A DNA stretch of 6,088 nt from Desulfofustis sp. Lineage in GTDB: Bacteria; Desulfobacterota; Desulfobulbia; Desulfobulbales; Desulfocapsaceae. The notes beneath the pieces were generated by a model. It was not told the DNA's origin. It searched no databases and was given only the letters and a program-made list of their open reading frames with translations. Location of the stretch: the NCBI GenBank assembly GCA_029287755.1, contig JARFQM010000155.1, forward strand, positions 1-6,088, given 5' to 3'. This document shows, in pieces, positions 214-6,088 of this stretch; the first letter of the stretch is position 1; every line of letters begins with the position of its first letter. A program made the position numbers and the translations under genes.

Positions 214-1509
214 ATGCCGGTTACCGACATTCTGATATTCTTTCTGGCAGGTTTGACCCTACTGTTTTTAGGAATCCCCATTTCTCCGGTAATGGCAATA
301 ATTGGTCTTACCGGTGGCCTTTTAGCGTTTGGTTTGCCGTTTATGAACTCCATTGGCAACGTGGTCTGGGGGGTCCATAACTCGTTTATTCTCACCGCGG
401 TACCGCTGTTTATCCTGATGGGCGAAATCCTGCTTCGCTCGGGTGTGGCCGATCGCATGTACGAGTCACTGGCCAAATGGATGAACTGGTTGCCCGGCAA
501 TTTGCTGCACACCAACATCGGCTGCTGCGCCTTATTCTCGGCCACCACAGGGTCATCAGTTGCCTGCGCGGCAACGGTGGGAACGGTGGCACTGCCAGCC
601 CTGAGCGAGCGAGGTTTTTCCAAGAAGTTATCGCTGGGGTCCCTGGCCGCCGGCGGCACGATGGGAATTCTCATTCCCCCAAGCATCGCTCTGATCATTT
701 ACGGCAGCCTTACCAATAATTCTATAAGTCAGTTATTTGTGGCCGGCGTGATCCCGGGCATTGCCCTGACCTTTGCATTTATTGCCTACCTTATGTTTGC
801 CAGTGTGTATGTCGGCAAAACCGGTACTGTTTCAGTTTCTTGGCCAGAAAGGATCAGGGCGCTGCCGGCGATGATACCGCCTCTGGTGATCTTTTTCATC
901 GTCATGGGCTCAATCTACTTCGGACTGGCAACGCCAACCGAATCGGCGGCCCTGGGCATCATGGCTTCCCTGTTTTTTGCCTGGCGCAGCGGCCGGCTTA
1001 CACTGGAAATGCTTCACAAGAGTTTTGTTAATACCGCCCAGCTCACCGGTATGATAATCCTCATTATTACCGCAGCGTTCATTCTGAACCTTACGCTCAG
1101 TCTTCTTGGAATTGCCGAGATGCTCACCCAGCAGGTGATGAGTCTGGATTTGACGTTCACTCAACTCACCCTGGTAATGATTGCGTTCTATATAGTGCTG
1201 GGTATGTTTCTCGACGTGTTGTCGATCCAGGTAGCAACCATTCCCATAGCCTACCCAATCATGACGGCAGCTGGCGCCGATCCTATTTGGTTCGGCATAT
1301 TCATTGTCCTGATGAGTGAAGTGGCGATGATTACCCCGCCGATGGGAATGAACCTGTTTGTCATCCAGGGAGTGCGCCAGGACAAGGGACCGCTGTCTGA
1401 TGTTATTTGGGGAGCAATGCCCTTTGCTCTGATAATGCTTGCCTTTACCGTGATGCTGATATTCTTCCCGGATCTCGTTACCTGGCTGCCTTCGAAAATG
1501 AAAGGATAA
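214..1509 (+). CDS. TRAP transporter large permease (DctM-type)
   Basis: This 431-residue protein has the normal length for the family and is almost entirely hydrophobic, consistent with the usual 11-12 or more membrane helices. Family landmarks are visible: AVPLFILMGEILLRSGVAD at about residues 62-80, the small-residue stretch ATTGSSVACAATVG at 110-123, GILIPPSIALIIYG at 151-164, and the late ITPPMGMNLFVIQG at 373-386. DctM is the Na+-coupled transport subunit that takes substrate from a periplasmic binding protein. The start is well supported: a purine-rich GGGGGGAG at 201-208 lies five bases before the ATG, and the gene begins two bases after the upstream stop. The substrate cannot be read from this subunit. 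Its linkage to the oxamate carbamoyltransferase genes suggests a small carboxylate or ureide from purine breakdown, which is inference. Confidence 0.95.
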   Translation: MPVTDILIFFLAGLTLLFLGIPISPVMAIIGLTGGLLAFGLPFMNSIGNVVWGVHNSFILTAVPLFILMGEILLRSGVADRMYESLAKWMNWLPGNLLHTNIGCCALFSATTGSSVACAATVGTVALPALSERGFSKKLSLGSLAAGGTMGILIPPSIALIIYGSLTNNSISQLFVAGVIPGIALTFAFIAYLMFASVYVGKTGTVSVSWPERIRALPAMIPPLVIFFIVMGSIYFGLATPTESAALGIMASLFFAWRSGRLTLEMLHKSFVNTAQLTGMIILIITAAFILNLTLSLLGIAEMLTQQVMSLDLTFTQLTLVMIAFYIVLGMFLDVLSIQVATIPIAYPIMTAAGADPIWFGIFIVLMSEVAMITPPMGMNLFVIQGVRQDKGPLSDVIWGAMPFALIMLAFTVMLIFFPDLVTWLPSKMKG

Positions 1510-1511
1510 CC

Positions 1512-1714
1512 ATGAGCAGCAGTAATCATTACAAGGCGTCGGACAAGCGCCTCGTTGCTCTTGGCGGGAATGCAATCCACCCCGAAGGAATACGAGGCAC
1601 CGGACAAGAGCAGTTCGACATTGCCTCCGAAGCGGCAAAAACGCAACCATCGCACATCTCGGGCAGGCCCACGGGGCGCTGCTGGGGAATACGGGCAGCC
1701 GAATTTCGCATTGA
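1512..1714 (+). pseudogene. Carbamate kinase remnant with internal deletion
   Basis: The ATG at 1512 follows the dctM stop by two bases, with AAAGGA (1501-1506) as ribosome binding site. The frame reads RLVALGGNAIHPEG, then GTGQEQFDIASEAAK, which is the N-terminus of carbamate kinase including its nucleotide-binding GGNA motif. After about base 1640 this frame loses family resemblance. A different frame (1634-1714) then reads GKNATIAHLGQAHGALLG followed by NTGSRISH and a TGA. This aligns without gaps to the usual C-terminus of the family (GK-A-I--L--A--AL-G-AG-RI). A normal enzyme has about 310 residues, so roughly 700 bases of the middle are missing, with the junction near 1631-1645, and the two ends are out of frame. 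Carbamate kinase makes ATP from carbamoyl phosphate and ADP, and E. coli AllK (YbcF) serves the oxamate carbamoyltransferase pathway. The first frame could still yield a peptide of about 70 residues ending at the TAG at 1722-1724, but it would not be an enzyme. Confidence 0.85.
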
Positions 1715-1725: not shown

Positions 1726-2706
1726 GTGAATTTCGAAAGCAACAAAGACGTTTTTTCTGCCGACTCAATCGGAGAATTGGCACTTCAGCGGATAAGGCTC
1801 TCGAGACGCTGGCGCATTATTGGTGTCTACCGATGCTGTTTCTATTGCCTGGACGATTCGGGAGAGATCCTCTGCATAGGGTCCGACCGAGTAGAACGGG
1901 GCCCCTTTACTATTAATAGCCCATCAATTGGTGGTCTGCTGGAAACCGGTATATCAGCCGGAGCCGTTCTCAACTCTGACGACAGTTGCCTCCATTTCAG
2001 GGATTTTTCCTGCTGCATTGATGTGGGTGGGGCCGAGATCTGGGATGCGGCTTTCCCGGTTTGCCCCGAACCCTTGACCAGCCTGGAAAGTGATGTTGAT
2101 GTGTTAATTTCGCTTGCCCGGCGTCACGCGCCACTAGAAAGTCTGGGCCAGCTGATCCCCAGAACGTTCAAAGAAGCTTCCCGGAGTTCCACGGCAATCC
2201 CACTCTTGTCAGAACTTCTGCATGAAAGGGTGTGGGAATCAATAAAGTGCATCTGTCAGGATATTGAGGACAAAAGTCAGGAGGACAGCACAGCAGTGCT
2301 GGCGAATCACCTGACCAGTTTGATCGGAGCCGGTTACGGCCTGACCCCGTCGGGGGATGATTTTTGTTGTGGGGTAATCCTCGGGATAGCGAGAATGCAG
2401 AACCGTCGGGCAGCCGAAAGTCTGGCGATGGCTTTAAACGCAGCAGCCGAAGAAAGAACCACCACTCTCAGCCGCGCATTTTTTAGATCTCTGGCCGAAG
2501 CCAGAGTGTCGGAGACGCAAGACAGGCTGCTGAGCAATTTTGGCAACTCCGGGGTGGCCGATATACGGCCAATCCTGCTCAGAGCAGCAAGCCATGGCTC
2601 TACTTCCGGTTGGGATATGCTTGCGGGATGGGCCTTTGGCGTCGAGCTCTTCAGACAAAGATCGTTAACAGGTAAGGCAGCCTATGAAAAAGGGTGTGTA
2701 TGCTGA
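1726..2706 (+). CDS. allH: DUF2877 protein, AllH (YlbF)-type oxamate carbamoyltransferase subunit
   Basis: From the GTG start this is a 326-residue soluble protein without signal peptide. The DUF2877 signature GAGYGLTPSGDDF is at residues 201-213, and the second conserved segment, HGSTSGWDML, is at 290-299 close to the C-terminus. In E. coli the DUF2877 protein AllH, with AllF and AllG, forms oxamic transcarbamylase, which phosphorolyses oxalurate to oxamate and carbamoyl phosphate. All three families occur in this cluster. The frame stays open upstream to an ATG at 1555, which would give 383 residues. That extra region overlaps the carbamate kinase remnant in another frame, is of low-complexity K/R/P/S character, and contains no family sequence, so the GTG at 1726 with its AGAGG is preferred; an in-frame TTG at 1711 is a weaker alternative. 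The gene looks intact although the genes on both sides are decayed. Confidence 0.85.
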   Translation: MNFESNKDVFSADSIGELALQRIRLSRRWRIIGVYRCCFYCLDDSGEILCIGSDRVERGPFTINSPSIGGLLETGISAGAVLNSDDSCLHFRDFSCCIDVGGAEIWDAAFPVCPEPLTSLESDVDVLISLARRHAPLESLGQLIPRTFKEASRSSTAIPLLSELLHERVWESIKCICQDIEDKSQEDSTAVLANHLTSLIGAGYGLTPSGDDFCCGVILGIARMQNRRAAESLAMALNAAAEERTTTLSRAFFRSLAEARVSETQDRLLSNFGNSGVADIRPILLRAASHGSTSGWDMLAGWAFGVELFRQRSLTGKAAYEKGCVC

Positions 2707-2892
2707 GCGGCAGGTTTTTTCACCAGGCGCATTTTGAGTGCACTTTCCTCTTTTATGACCCAGTCGCCGGGGGACCTGGTGATAACCGTTACAGCGTGTG
2801 GTATAGGGCCGCTAAAAGCGGGAGATGAGTTAGGGGTGGAAGTAAAAGATATAGGGCGACTTAGTAACCCGGTGCACAATGACACGCCGTAA
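2684..2892 (+). pseudogene. Fumarylacetoacetate hydrolase (FAH)-family remnant, mainly C-terminus, frameshifted
   Basis: The frame ending at the TAA 2890-2892 reads RILSALSSFMTQSPGDLVIT, then GIGPLKAGDELGVEVKDIGR and LSNPV. This is the characteristic C-terminal end of FAH-family hydrolases (consensus FMTL-PGD-I-TGTPAGVGPLKPGD-VEVEI-GIG-L-NPV). The usual TGTPAG is changed to TVTACG. Just upstream the preceding family residues (RQVFSPG) are in the next frame. A single missing base near 2726-2730 would join them into FSPGRILSALSSFMT, which has the spacing seen in intact members. An ATG at 2684 with AAGG (2674-2677) six bases before it lies in the upstream frame and may be the original start, overlapping the end of the DUF2877 gene. 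As it stands, that frame stops after 17 codons at 2737. A full FAH protein has roughly 250-300 residues, so most of the gene, including the metal-binding core, is gone. The FAH fold hydrolyses or decarboxylates many 2-oxo compounds, so the former substrate cannot be stated. Confidence 0.8.
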
Positions 2893-2913
2893 TTAATCGA
2901 AATGGATGTAAGC

Positions 2914-4455
2914 ATGTTCACTGCTACGACAATAGAAAATTCAAGTTATCATGACTCCGTGGTACTCATGCGAGTGGCGAGTCAGTTAAAAAAGCGCACG
3001 GGCGTGTCTGAAGTAGCTCTGTTCATGGGTACCCAGGGCAATCATGAATTACTGAATCAGGTCGGCCTTACGACTCCGGAGAGTCAGGGGGCAGGGCCTG
3101 AAGACCTGATCATTATTGTCAAGGCTGAGTCGGAAAAGCTCGCTGAGGCGATTACCTCACAAGCTGTCCAGATGCTTGCCTCCCGCCGGGATGAGGTCCA
3201 GGCCACCCTGGAATATCGACCCCGAACTCTTGAGCGGGCCTTGGAATACCTTCCGCGCGCCTCTCTTGCATCGATTTCTATCCCTGGTGAGTATGCCGCC
3301 AGGGAAGCATCACGCTGCCTCGACCGGAACCTCAACATCTTCCTTTTCAGCGACAATGTATTGCTTAAAGATGAACTGAAATTGAAAATGAAGGCTCTAG
3401 ACAGGGGGTTGCTCTGCATGGGACCGGACTGCGGTACGGCCAGTATCGGCGGAGTGGGGCTCGGATTTACCAATCGGGTCAGCAGGGGAAGGGTCGGCTG
3501 CGTGGCCGCCTCCGGTACCGGCCTGCAGGCTGTCATGTGTCGGATTGATCAGCTCGGCGAGGGCGTGTCGCATGCAATCGGCGTCGGGGGTAGAGATCTG
3601 AGCCAAGAGGTTGGTGGATTAATGAGCCGTTATGCACTGCAGCTGCTCGATGAAGATCCATCGACGGAAATCATTGTCCTGCTCTCCAAAGCGCCTCACC
3701 CTGAAGTACGTGAGCGGTTGAGCGAGACCATTAAAAAATTACAGACCACGGTGATAGTTTACTTCCAGGGCGAGAGGACATTCTCCGTCGGAGAAGACCA
3801 GGCTGAGACTCTGGACGGTGTGGCAGAGCTGGCGGTCAGTTACCTGCAAAATAAACCGTACCACCCCGTGTCGTTCGGAGATCCGGGTCAGGTTAAGGAA
3901 CTTCTCGAGCGTATGGGAGGCACCGCAGAAGGGCAACGCATCGTTGGTCTCTACGCGGGCGGAACGCTGGCTAAGGAGGCTCAATTGCTCATTCAGGATC
4001 TGGCAGGTAAGGTATCAAGTGATGTCGATGACGGGCACAATCACCTGGTGGTCGATCTGGGTGAAGACAAATATACCGTCGGTAAACCGCACCCTATGAT
4101 AGCACCGGAAAACCGCACAGACATGCTGTTATCCCTGGCCGCCAATGAAAAGCTTGGAAATTGCGGAGTTCTGCTTTTTGATCTGGTGCTCGGTAATGGT
4201 TCTCATCTTGATCCAGCTACTGAACTGGTTTCAGGTCTCGAGGTGCTCAATGAAAGATATGGTATCTCCTTACCGGTTGTGGCGGCCGTGATTGGTACCG
4301 AGAAGGATCGCCAGTCAATTAATGAGCAGATAGAGCGTTTAAGGGAATATGGCGCTGCTGTCTTTGTCAAGAACAGTGAATCTGCCAGGTTTTCAGCCAT
4401 CCTGACTGACCCTGCCAAACATGCCAGCCTGCTGGAGGTGTCTGATGAGCTCTAA
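2914..4455 (+). CDS. fdrA: FdrA/AllF, acyl-CoA synthetase-like subunit of oxamate carbamoyltransferase
   Basis: This 513-residue cytoplasmic protein belongs to the FdrA family, which shares the succinyl-CoA ligase alpha-subunit fold. The N-terminal SYHDSVVLM and EVALFMGTQGNHELL (residues about 11-48) are typical. The Rossmann/ligase region has MGPDCGTA (169-176), AASGTGLQ (198-205, the loop matching the phosphohistidine-loop area of the ligases) and AIGVGGRDLSQEVGG (221-235). The C-terminal half has VGLYAGGTLAKEA, VDLGEDKYTVGKPHPMI (380-396) and LLFDLVLGNGSHLDPA (420-435). In E. coli this protein is AllF, part of oxamic transcarbamylase with AllG and AllH. The ATG at 2914 is preferred because a GGA at 2905-2907 precedes it and the N-terminus then has the usual length; an in-frame ATG at 2902 has no ribosome binding site. 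E. coli FdrA is about 555 residues, and the ~40-residue shortfall may correspond to the small gene that follows. Confidence 0.92.
   Translation: MFTATTIENSSYHDSVVLMRVASQLKKRTGVSEVALFMGTQGNHELLNQVGLTTPESQGAGPEDLIIIVKAESEKLAEAITSQAVQMLASRRDEVQATLEYRPRTLERALEYLPRASLASISIPGEYAAREASRCLDRNLNIFLFSDNVLLKDELKLKMKALDRGLLCMGPDCGTASIGGVGLGFTNRVSRGRVGCVAASGTGLQAVMCRIDQLGEGVSHAIGVGGRDLSQEVGGLMSRYALQLLDEDPSTEIIVLLSKAPHPEVRERLSETIKKLQTTVIVYFQGERTFSVGEDQAETLDGVAELAVSYLQNKPYHPVSFGDPGQVKELLERMGGTAEGQRIVGLYAGGTLAKEAQLLIQDLAGKVSSDVDDGHNHLVVDLGEDKYTVGKPHPMIAPENRTDMLLSLAANEKLGNCGVLLFDLVLGNGSHLDPATELVSGLEVLNERYGISLPVVAAVIGTEKDRQSINEQIERLREYGAAVFVKNSESARFSAILTDPAKHASLLEVSDEL
4434..4438 (+). promoter_or_regulatory. 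Strong internal ribosome binding site for the small downstream gene
   Basis: A perfect GGAGG lies inside the last codons of fdrA, six bases before the ATG at 4445. Together with the 11-base overlap of the two genes it indicates translational coupling, and it supports the small gene as a real separate product. Confidence 0.75.
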
Positions 4456-4642
4456 ACGAACGGTCCTTGGTCGAGAAATCCGGGTAATCAACATCGGAAT
4501 AGAGCGTTTTTCAGAAGACCTGAAAGAAGCCAATGTGCCGGTAATCCAGATGGACTGGCGTCCCCCGGCGGGGGGCGACAGAAAATTGATCGAATTGCTG
4601 GACAGCCTTAATGAGGAATCCGGCCCTGATGTAAGTGAATAG
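4445..4642 (+). CDS. Small DWRPPAGGD protein, probable split-off domain of the oxamate carbamoyltransferase
   Basis: This 65-residue protein starts inside the fdrA end (11-base overlap) with a strong GGAGG. It reads VINIGIERFSEDL, VPVIQMDWRPPAGGD (31-45) and then LIELLD, with a polar tail. The pattern of N-(I/V)-G-L--F---L--Q----V-VDWRPPAGG is one I associate with FdrA and DUF1116 proteins, where it sits at the end of the former or the start of the latter; I recall this and have not checked it. Here it is an independent gene between them, in a different frame from DUF1116 and 28 bases upstream of it. It is likely a small structural or active-site piece of the same enzyme. No signal peptide or membrane segment is present. 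Function is inferred only from motif and position, but the motif, ribosome binding site and tight packing make it a confident gene. Confidence 0.85.
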   Translation: MSSKRTVLGREIRVINIGIERFSEDLKEANVPVIQMDWRPPAGGDRKLIELLDSLNEESGPDVSE

Positions 4643-4670: not shown

Positions 4671-5909
4671 ATGAAAATTGAAGAAGCTAATCAACTCTGT
4701 CTCGAGAAAATTCAATCCAGCACCGCCATCTGGACCGATATAAAACCGGCTAGGGAGGTTGTTCCCGGAATGGATGATTACACCGTCCTGCATGCAGGTC
4801 CGCCGGTAGCCTGGGACAAAATGTGCGGACCGATGCGCGGCTCAATCACCGGGGCCTGCATTTTCGAGGGCTGGGCCAACACTCCGGAAGAAGTCGAGAA
4901 AATCGCTACGAGCGGTAAACTGATTTTCGATTCAAGCCATCATCACCACGCTATTGGCCCGATGTCCGGCATCATTACCCCGTCCATGGAGGTTTCGGTC
5001 GTAACCAATGATGTTCACCACCTGGAAACCTATGCAACCCTTTATATGGGTATCGGCAAGGTGCTCAGACATGGCGCATTCGACGACGAAGTAATGGCAA
5101 AACTTCGATGGATGAACCAGGAACTCGCTCCCCTCCTAAAAAAAACGCTGGCCGAGGCTGGCGGTGTCGATCTTAAAAGTATTGTGGCGCAGGCGCTGCA
5201 GATGGGCGATGAACTGCACAACAGGAATAGGGCCAGCAACGCGCTGCTGCTCAACAGTCTCGTCCAGCATATGATCAAGGTAGGTCCCCAGGGCCTGGTG
5301 ATTAAAGCCATTGATTTCATAGATAAGGCGGGGCATTTCATTCTTAACGCCGTCATGGCCGGATCCAAAGGGATGCTCGATGCCGGCGCCCATATTGAGA
5401 ACTCCACCATCGTTAGCGCCATTGCCCGCAACGGTTACGAAACCGGTATTCGCGTCAGCGGTTTGGGCGATCAGTGGTTTACAGCACCTGCACCGATGAT
5501 CGAGGGAGTATATTTCCCAGGCTTCGGGCCGCAAGATGCAAACCCCGACATGGGGGATTCTGCCATAACCGAAACCATTGGCCTCGGATCATTTGCAATG
5601 GCAGGGGCGCCTGCCGTAGTTGAGTATATTGGTGGCACGGCGCAGTTCGCCATGGAGACGTCCCTGAAGATGTATGAGATCACAGCTGGCGAGCACCAAA
5701 CCTATAAAATCCCGCCCCTTAACTTCCGGGGCACTCCACTGGGAATTGATATTCGCAAGGTGGTCGAAACAGGAATCACCCCCGTGATAAATACAGGAAT
5801 TGCTTGCCGCCGTCCCGGCGTAGGGCAGATTGGAGCCGGTCTTACCGCGGCCCCGATGGAGTGTTTCAGCAAAGCGCTCGAAGCTTTTGTAAGACAACGA
5901 GTCAAGTAA
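4671..5909 (+). CDS. allG: DUF1116 protein, AllG (YlbE)-type oxamate carbamoyltransferase subunit
   Basis: At 412 residues it is close to E. coli YlbE (about 419) and appears complete. Conserved DUF1116 features are in order: AREVVPGMDD (28-37), HAGPPVAWDKMCGPMRGS near 41-58, the histidine run SSHHHHAIGPMSG (88-100), MGDELHNRNRA (178-188), RNGYETGIRVSGLGDQWFTA (253-272), MGDSAITETIGLGSFAMAGA (294-313), and INTGIACRRPGVGQIGAGL (373-391). In E. coli the family member AllG is part of the oxalurate/oxamate carbamoyl transfer enzyme with AllF and AllH. The histidine run and the glycine-rich loops are family features and likely lie at the active site; that placement is inference. The start ATG at 4671 has only a weak AAGAG six bases upstream, and the gene follows the small DWRPPAGGD gene by 28 bases. 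No signal peptide is present, so it acts in the cytoplasm. Confidence 0.92.
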   Translation: MKIEEANQLCLEKIQSSTAIWTDIKPAREVVPGMDDYTVLHAGPPVAWDKMCGPMRGSITGACIFEGWANTPEEVEKIATSGKLIFDSSHHHHAIGPMSGIITPSMEVSVVTNDVHHLETYATLYMGIGKVLRHGAFDDEVMAKLRWMNQELAPLLKKTLAEAGGVDLKSIVAQALQMGDELHNRNRASNALLLNSLVQHMIKVGPQGLVIKAIDFIDKAGHFILNAVMAGSKGMLDAGAHIENSTIVSAIARNGYETGIRVSGLGDQWFTAPAPMIEGVYFPGFGPQDANPDMGDSAITETIGLGSFAMAGAPAVVEYIGGTAQFAMETSLKMYEITAGEHQTYKIPPLNFRGTPLGIDIRKVVETGITPVINTGIACRRPGVGQIGAGLTAAPMECFSKALEAFVRQRVK

Positions 5910-5932
5910 ATGTTAATAGCGAGGATTACCCA

Positions 5933-6088
5933 GTGACTACCTTTAAAAGCGGACGCCATTTTCTGCAAATCCCTGGACCGAGCAACGTACCGGACAGAAT
6001 TCTGCATGCCATCGGTCGGCCGACCATCGATCATCGCGGACCTGAATTCCAGAAACTCTCGGAGGAGGTGCTCATCGGTTCCAGGCGG
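5933..6088 (+). CDS. Class V aminotransferase, serine-glyoxylate type, N-terminal part only
   Basis: The first 52 codons run off the window end. The GTG start at 5933 has GAGG at 5921-5924, eight bases upstream, and lies 23 bases after the allG stop. The sequence GRHFLQIPGPSNVPDRIL followed by IGRPTIDHRGPEFQKL is the standard N-terminus of serine-glyoxylate/alanine-glyoxylate aminotransferases, which are PLP enzymes of fold type I. The PLP-binding lysine lies beyond the window. These enzymes convert glyoxylate to glycine using serine or alanine. The related PucG/HpxJ enzymes instead use ureidoglycine and produce oxalurate, the substrate of the enzyme encoded just upstream. The visible N-terminus looks more like the serine-glyoxylate branch as I remember it, so the donor is undecided. 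Position at the end of the cluster suggests co-transcription and a shared pathway. Confidence 0.88.
   Translation, partial: MTTFKSGRHFLQIPGPSNVPDRILHAIGRPTIDHRGPEFQKLSEEVLIGSRR

Follow-up and report, generated by a model that had tools for sequence, protein, structure and literature searches.

A carbamate kinase gene reduced to its two ends in an oxamate-carbamoyltransferase-type operon of Desulfofustis sp.

Introduction

In oxalurate breakdown, oxalurate and phosphate give oxamate and carbamoyl phosphate, after which AllK forms ATP, and AllF, AllG and AllH correspond by family to the three subunits that were found to form the E. coli oxamic transcarbamylase, as described in PMC11326118. The window analysed here, a stretch of 6,088 nucleotides from Desulfofustis sp., places a stretch of 203 nt between the genes for the TRAP transporter subunit DctM and for AllH, which the initial annotation had read as the two ends of a carbamate kinase gene whose middle was deleted. 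How did this stretch arise, and what would its loss mean for the pathway?

Results

Layout of the operon

The window holds an operon of the oxamate-carbamoyltransferase type (allFGH), preceded by a TRAP transporter gene, and this operon appears built for oxalurate breakdown. The features are listed below, with P0168 denoting an intact kinase used for comparison and L001 a related locus.

214..1509, + strand: TRAP transporter large subunit DctM, 431 aa, open; Pfam PF06808, 277 bits
1512..1640, + strand: allK (carbamate kinase) N-terminal remnant, residues 1-43; 35/43 identical to P0168, E 9e-19
1632..1640, + strand: deletion junction GCGGCAAAA, read against the P0168 sequence
1634..1714, + strand: allK C-terminal remnant in a different frame, with the final 26 residues plus the original TGA stop; 23/26 identical to P0168
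1512..1724, + strand: 70-aa ORF, kinase N-terminus and then out of frame; product of the deletion
1726..2706, + strand: allH (DUF2877), 326 aa, open; PF11392, 72.8 bits
2700..2733, + strand: FAH-family gene N-terminal remnant, assigned by eye, too short for statistics
2716..2892, + strand: FAH-family gene C-terminal remnant, in another frame, with stop; PF01557, 29.2 bits (cut-off 23.9)
2902..4455, + strand: fdrA/allF main part, 517 aa, open; NF004760, 444.4 bits (cut-off 433)
4445..4642, + strand: small gene for the FdrA C-terminal end; NF004760 positions 505-555 (matched on 4421-4642)
4671..5909, + strand: allG (DUF1116), 412 aa, open; PF06545, 269.6 bits; homologues up to 99% identical
5933..6088, + strand: class-V aminotransferase gene, start only, truncated where the window ends; compare the L001 counterpart

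All three AllFGH subunit families are present and open, with NF004760 above its cut-off and PF06545 and PF11392 above their gathering scores, and oxalurate/oxamate carbamoyl transfer is the activity predicted for them. Sequence and alignment indicate GTG 1726 as the likely allH start, one base ahead of which the 70-aa ORF stops (TAG 1722-1724). A mechanically called allH ORF (1555-2706) extends back across the allK remnant. The aminotransferase stretch reaches 29.8 bits with NF045640 on 5804-6088, far under the cut-off of 650, and L001 carries a full-length aminotransferase gene (PF00266) in the corresponding place. The C-terminal 51 profile positions of FdrA are encoded in the window by a small gene of their own that overlaps the main part, and in relatives too the corresponding matches lie beside, not within, the main FdrA; this is a normal split, not a broken gene.

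The E. coli allFGHK operon (fdrA-ylbE-ylbF-ybcF), as far as it is described in PMC11326118 and PMC9843812, shares the three carbamoyltransferase subunit families with the window and includes a catabolic carbamate kinase gene, as the window did before the deletion. The window differs in its deleted kinase gene, its gene order, the TRAP transporter gene upstream, the aminotransferase gene that follows, and the separate gene for the C-terminal end of FdrA, whereas E. coli AllF is a single 555-aa protein (PMC11326118).

Kinase origin of the stretch between dctM and allH

The comparison that proved decisive was made with P0168, a 321-aa protein found by a profile of six intact AllK proteins, five of them belonging to relatives in the order and the sixth to the more distant locus L009. 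Among the best 120 of 6510 kinases it is the closest to both ends together, and its intact sequence reaches 73.5 bits with PF00696 (cut-off 24.9), 306.6 with NF009007 (cut-off 266) and 343.9 with TIGR00746, under the cut-off of 358.25. A tblastn search of P0168 against the window gives two collinear matches in different frames, such that residues 1-43 align to 1512-1640 (35/43 identical, E 9e-19) and residues 296-321 to 1634-1711 (23/26 identical, E 6e-11). The next-best P0168 match in the window has E 0.18, and reversed P0168 reaches only E 0.41. With the more distant L001 kinase the N-terminal piece is still matched (24/42, E 8e-12) and the C-terminal piece weakly so (12/24, E 0.008). The best real fragment scores are 184 (N) and 122 (C); when each fragment was shuffled 100 times and compared with the 20 nearest kinases, scores rose no higher than 49 and 52, respectively.

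The remnant begins at ATG 1512 and ends at TGA 1712-1714, with the second frame open from 1634, exactly as the initial annotation had placed the two pieces. The P0168 gene measures 966 nt with its stop and the remnant 203 nt, such that about 763 nt were lost, a length that is not a multiple of three; the earlier estimate was about 700 bases. Both ends are homologous to the kinase, collinear and located in the slot that holds a full-length kinase gene in five of six relatives, and comparison at the sequence level confirms that 1512-1714 is what an internal deletion left of an AllK-type carbamate kinase gene, namely its two ends.

The profile check that had been suggested for the two fragments came back empty, with 0 Pfam families for either, because pieces of this length, taken alone, offer profile libraries too little to match; the remnant has neither a full amino-acid-kinase domain (PF00696) nor a match to the carbamate kinase models. 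With the 70-aa ORF, an NCBIfam search gave only one unrelated weak match (E 0.17), and the sole match listed in a PDB search up to E 10 was carbamate kinase 1e19, which at E 1.3 is not significant. No other kinase ORF was seen within the 6,088-base window, and with an internal deletion in the kinase slot this allFGHK-type operon lacks a functional kinase gene. Programmed frameshifting was considered and rejected, since about 250 kinase residues are absent and not merely out of frame.

The deletion junction

The initial annotation had pointed to 1631-1645 as a place to look for a short direct repeat, and the nine bases GCGGCAAAA at 1632-1640, perhaps ten with 1641, fit both sides of the deletion. 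Read in the first frame they encode Ala-Ala-Lys (A41 A42 K43) of the N side, and read in the second they fit Gly-Gly-Lys-Asn (end of G295, G296 K297, start of N298) of the C side; P0168 carries matching residues at both places. At the level of DNA, GCGGCAAA is present at the N site in L001 and at the C site in L006, and these codons together with the L006 DNA suggest the C-side copy of GCGGCAAAA. When deletions of 700-800 nt were simulated in five intact genes, at least seven shared bases occurred in 20/100,000 and at least nine in 12/100,000. Because the junction bases fit both ends, the gene was probably lost by deletion between short direct repeats. A repeat search in the junction regions found none, as one would expect if a single copy is left.

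The same slot in related genomes

Of 257 genomes of the order searched for this AllH, six have it (E up to 1e-15). Relatives were found via a profile of 18 AllG proteins, from which the best 80 of 396 matches were kept; a scan of the genome collection with the window AllH alone gave no relative. The slot between DctM and AllH holds a full-length kinase in five of the six genomes (L001, L002, L005, L006 and L101), and the comparison with relatives that the initial annotation had called for thus came out in favor of a lost gene. The sixth, the Desulfobulbaceae MAG Ww85 (L004), has 61 nt only. Inspection by eye suggests about ten N-terminal and six C-terminal kinase residues in these 61 nt, without statistical support, and a tblastn search for a kinase remnant there gave no match. 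AllG also occurs in G003 and at another place in G001, but in both cases the contig ends before the AllK slot, which makes them uninformative.

In a tree of DctM, FdrA and AllG, rooted on L010, the window joins L005, L006 and L101 (support 93); L004 falls with L001 and L002 (support 100). The loci of this nearest clade, which includes Desulfofustis glycolicus (L005), follow the same DctM-AllK-AllH-FdrA-FdrA_C-AllG order as the window but differ from it in that AllK is intact and no FAH gene lies between AllH and FdrA.

A second deletion in a FAH-family gene

The initial annotation was right about allK and missed a similar deletion further downstream, where an FAH-family gene between allH and fdrA is also internally deleted (2700-2892). 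In L001 and L002 the intact gene encodes 254 residues when counted from the start they have in common (the longest ORF, in L002, has 260 aa), and the L001 protein matches PF01557 at 214 bits. The start of the window gene, ATG 2700, overlaps the allH stop and by eye reads MLSGRF... against MLIGRF... in L001 and L002. Residues 197-254 of the L001 protein, up to the last 58 residues, align to window positions 2716-2889 (E 7e-17), and the remnant covers only PF01557 profile positions 160-213 of 214, short of a complete FAA_hydrolase domain. By eye, the junction lies somewhere around 2716-2741, with about 570 nt deleted. Conserved residues within the remnant are altered, reading VTACG in place of GTPAG (L002) or GTPSG (L001).

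The L004 locus resembles the window in that AllK is missing and the FAH gene internally deleted in the same two slots. It is unlike the window in its breakpoints, in its in-frame FAH deletion of about 150 residues, and in grouping with the intact L001 and L002. The surviving FAH pieces match L001 residues 1-16 at 4691-4738, weakly (E 0.019), and residues 167-253 at 4736-4996 (E 4e-30), and the start position reads ATA. Since both genes are intact in L001 and L002, and since the window and L004 have different breakpoints, the allK and FAH losses in the latter two are taken as independent. Among the four loci that have or had the FAH gene, both with a broken FAH lack AllK and both with an intact FAH have AllK; with only four loci, no link between the losses can be claimed.

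Condition of the remaining genes

Is the remainder of the operon on its way to the same fate? The frames of the transporter gene, allH, fdrA and allG are all open, and the window branches of AllG and DctM are in the range of their sisters. The FdrA branch is longer, at 0.545 against sister terminal branches of 0.30-0.36, and the AllH branch of 1.26 is the longest terminal branch in the AllH tree, with L006 at 1.11. AllH is only 28-39% identical to the window across the six related loci, against 77-82% for AllG and 84-89% for DctM, and thus diverges very fast beside two slower proteins in one operon. These remaining genes appear consistent with retention, with relaxed constraint possible to some degree because the FdrA and AllH branches are long.

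A whole operon in decay, in which AllK and FAH went first and allH, fdrA and allG would go next, might account for the two broken genes, the long AllH and FdrA branches and the changed conserved residues of the FAH remnant. We nevertheless regard such decay as unlikely, given that the remaining genes are open with family matches, that the AllG proteins P0002-P0004, 97-99% identical to that of the window, likewise have 412 aa, and that AllH differs strongly among all relatives compared and not in the window alone.

Usual assembly word lengths far exceed nine bases, and the stretch shared at the allK junction, at about nine, would be far too short for a metagenome assembler to have fused two distant places of one gene. 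Such an artefact is suggested by the short source contig (6,088 bases) and by the listing of the exact 70-aa ORF from one contig against three for the exact AllG. It is nonetheless highly improbable: the altered conserved residues of the FAH remnant are changes that a false join would not cause, L004 has independent losses in the same slots, and no intact copy from the same strain appears among the best 120 of 6510 kinases, in a clustered collection.

That the remnant serves as a functional small protein or leader peptide, as its open 70-aa frame with a stop one base ahead of the likely allH start might suggest, is scarcely credible when its second part comes from reading the kinase C-terminus out of frame, none of three candidates scored proved to be a homologue carrying that part, and L004 has only 61 nt in this place. 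A conserved in-frame small protein of about 200 bases in a relative, named at the outset as the finding that would speak against a deletion, was looked for and none was found; the 70-aa ORF matched itself, P0122 and P0123 (three candidates scored), and the latter two resemble it only over the kinase N-terminus. P0122 (78 aa) and P0123 (50 aa, from a contig of 2954 bases) consist of an AllK N-terminus only, and may be cut by contig ends or represent further broken kinase genes.

Discussion

We consider it very probable that allK and the FAH gene were both inactivated by internal deletions, that carbamoyl phosphate is used elsewhere, that AllK became dispensable, and that the spared gene ends keep signals for their neighbors. 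The deletion in allK, of about 763 nt, would most simply have occurred between two nine-base copies of GCGGCAAAA, and a second deletion, of about 570 nt, would have inactivated the FAH gene. The operon would still make carbamoyl phosphate, which may feed the synthesis of arginine and pyrimidines or be used by another carbamate kinase, and through such other uses AllK may have become dispensable. Deletions sparing the gene ends may have survived because the downstream genes thereby kept their start and overlap signals, although the ATA at the FAH start position in L004 counts against this idea. Overall, the locus represents a well-supported case of ordinary gene loss, with parallel loss of both genes in another lineage. 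A broader reading, in which parallel loss of allK and FAH repeatedly turned the AllFGH operon of this lineage from a catabolic unit that yields ATP into one that salvages carbamoyl phosphate, with the transferase and transporter kept under selection, is in our judgment doubtful.

Would loss of the kinase break the pathway? The initial annotation had concluded that the ATP-forming step was removed, which holds for the operon kinase and goes too far for the whole cell, as three of six relatives carry a second kinase and, in the E. coli work described in PMC9843812, allantoin degradation hardly changed when the kinase gene ybcF was deleted, which the authors explain through the flow of carbamoyl phosphate into arginine and pyrimidines. 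A kinase search in ten genomes found at least one in nine. The second carbamate kinase, outside the operon and 54-57% identical to the operon type, is present in G001, G003 and G004, with an additional third kinase (42% identical) in G001; G002, G005 and G006 have the operon kinase only. In G008, the genome of L010, where the operon has no AllK nearby, a kinase is located elsewhere.

A wider scan covered 82 AllG loci, of which 48 have flanks of 3 kb or more at each end of the cluster and 34 have shorter ones (L011 and L106, on the same contig, are both of the latter). No AllK match lies within 5 kb in 36 of the 48, and 28 of the 34 have none either. Many of the scanned AllG proteins are only about 50% identical, and their loci may do something else. 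Absence of AllK near AllG is common, which counts against a strong reading of the loss in the window. Given the mild ybcF deletion, the kinases elsewhere in relatives and the many AllG loci without AllK, it is plausible that the operon can lose AllK without serious harm, and the pathway need not break.

The window is a counterpart from nature to the ybcF deletion made in the laboratory in E. coli, and suggests that retaining oxalurate phosphorolysis can pay off even when the dedicated kinase is gone. An open-access literature search found nothing on carbamate kinase pseudogenes with allantoin, nor on Desulfofustis with allantoin. The locus also presents an annotation pitfall, in that the mechanical allH ORF covers the dead kinase and the second (FAH) remnant is easy to overlook.

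The surroundings of the extra kinases deserve mention in their own right. In G001 the extra kinase sits between an aspartate-carbamoyltransferase-like gene, which is above the cut-off of PF02729 and below that of the equivalog model TIGR00670, and a ureidoglycolate lyase gene; in G003 it adjoins a similar lyase-like gene, family tests having been made on the G001 genes only. In G004 its neighbors are a carbamoyltransferase-like gene resembling that of G001 and a gene for a ureidoglycine aminohydrolase; here the kinase runs off the contig. By position, the second kinase type accompanies the carbamoyltransferase-like gene at L102 84-2863 and L104 7017-9715, the ureidoglycolate-lyase-type gene at L102 84-2863 and L103 402-1912, and the ureidoglycine aminohydrolase gene at L104 7017-9715. 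This neighborhood looks like a second ureide operon, judging by families tested in L102 and for the L104 aminohydrolase. Downstream of allG and the aminotransferase gene, the related locus L106 carries an amidase gene (PF01425) and a ureidoglycolate-lyase-family gene (PF04115) at 4759-6584, whose predicted families fit a ureide pathway.
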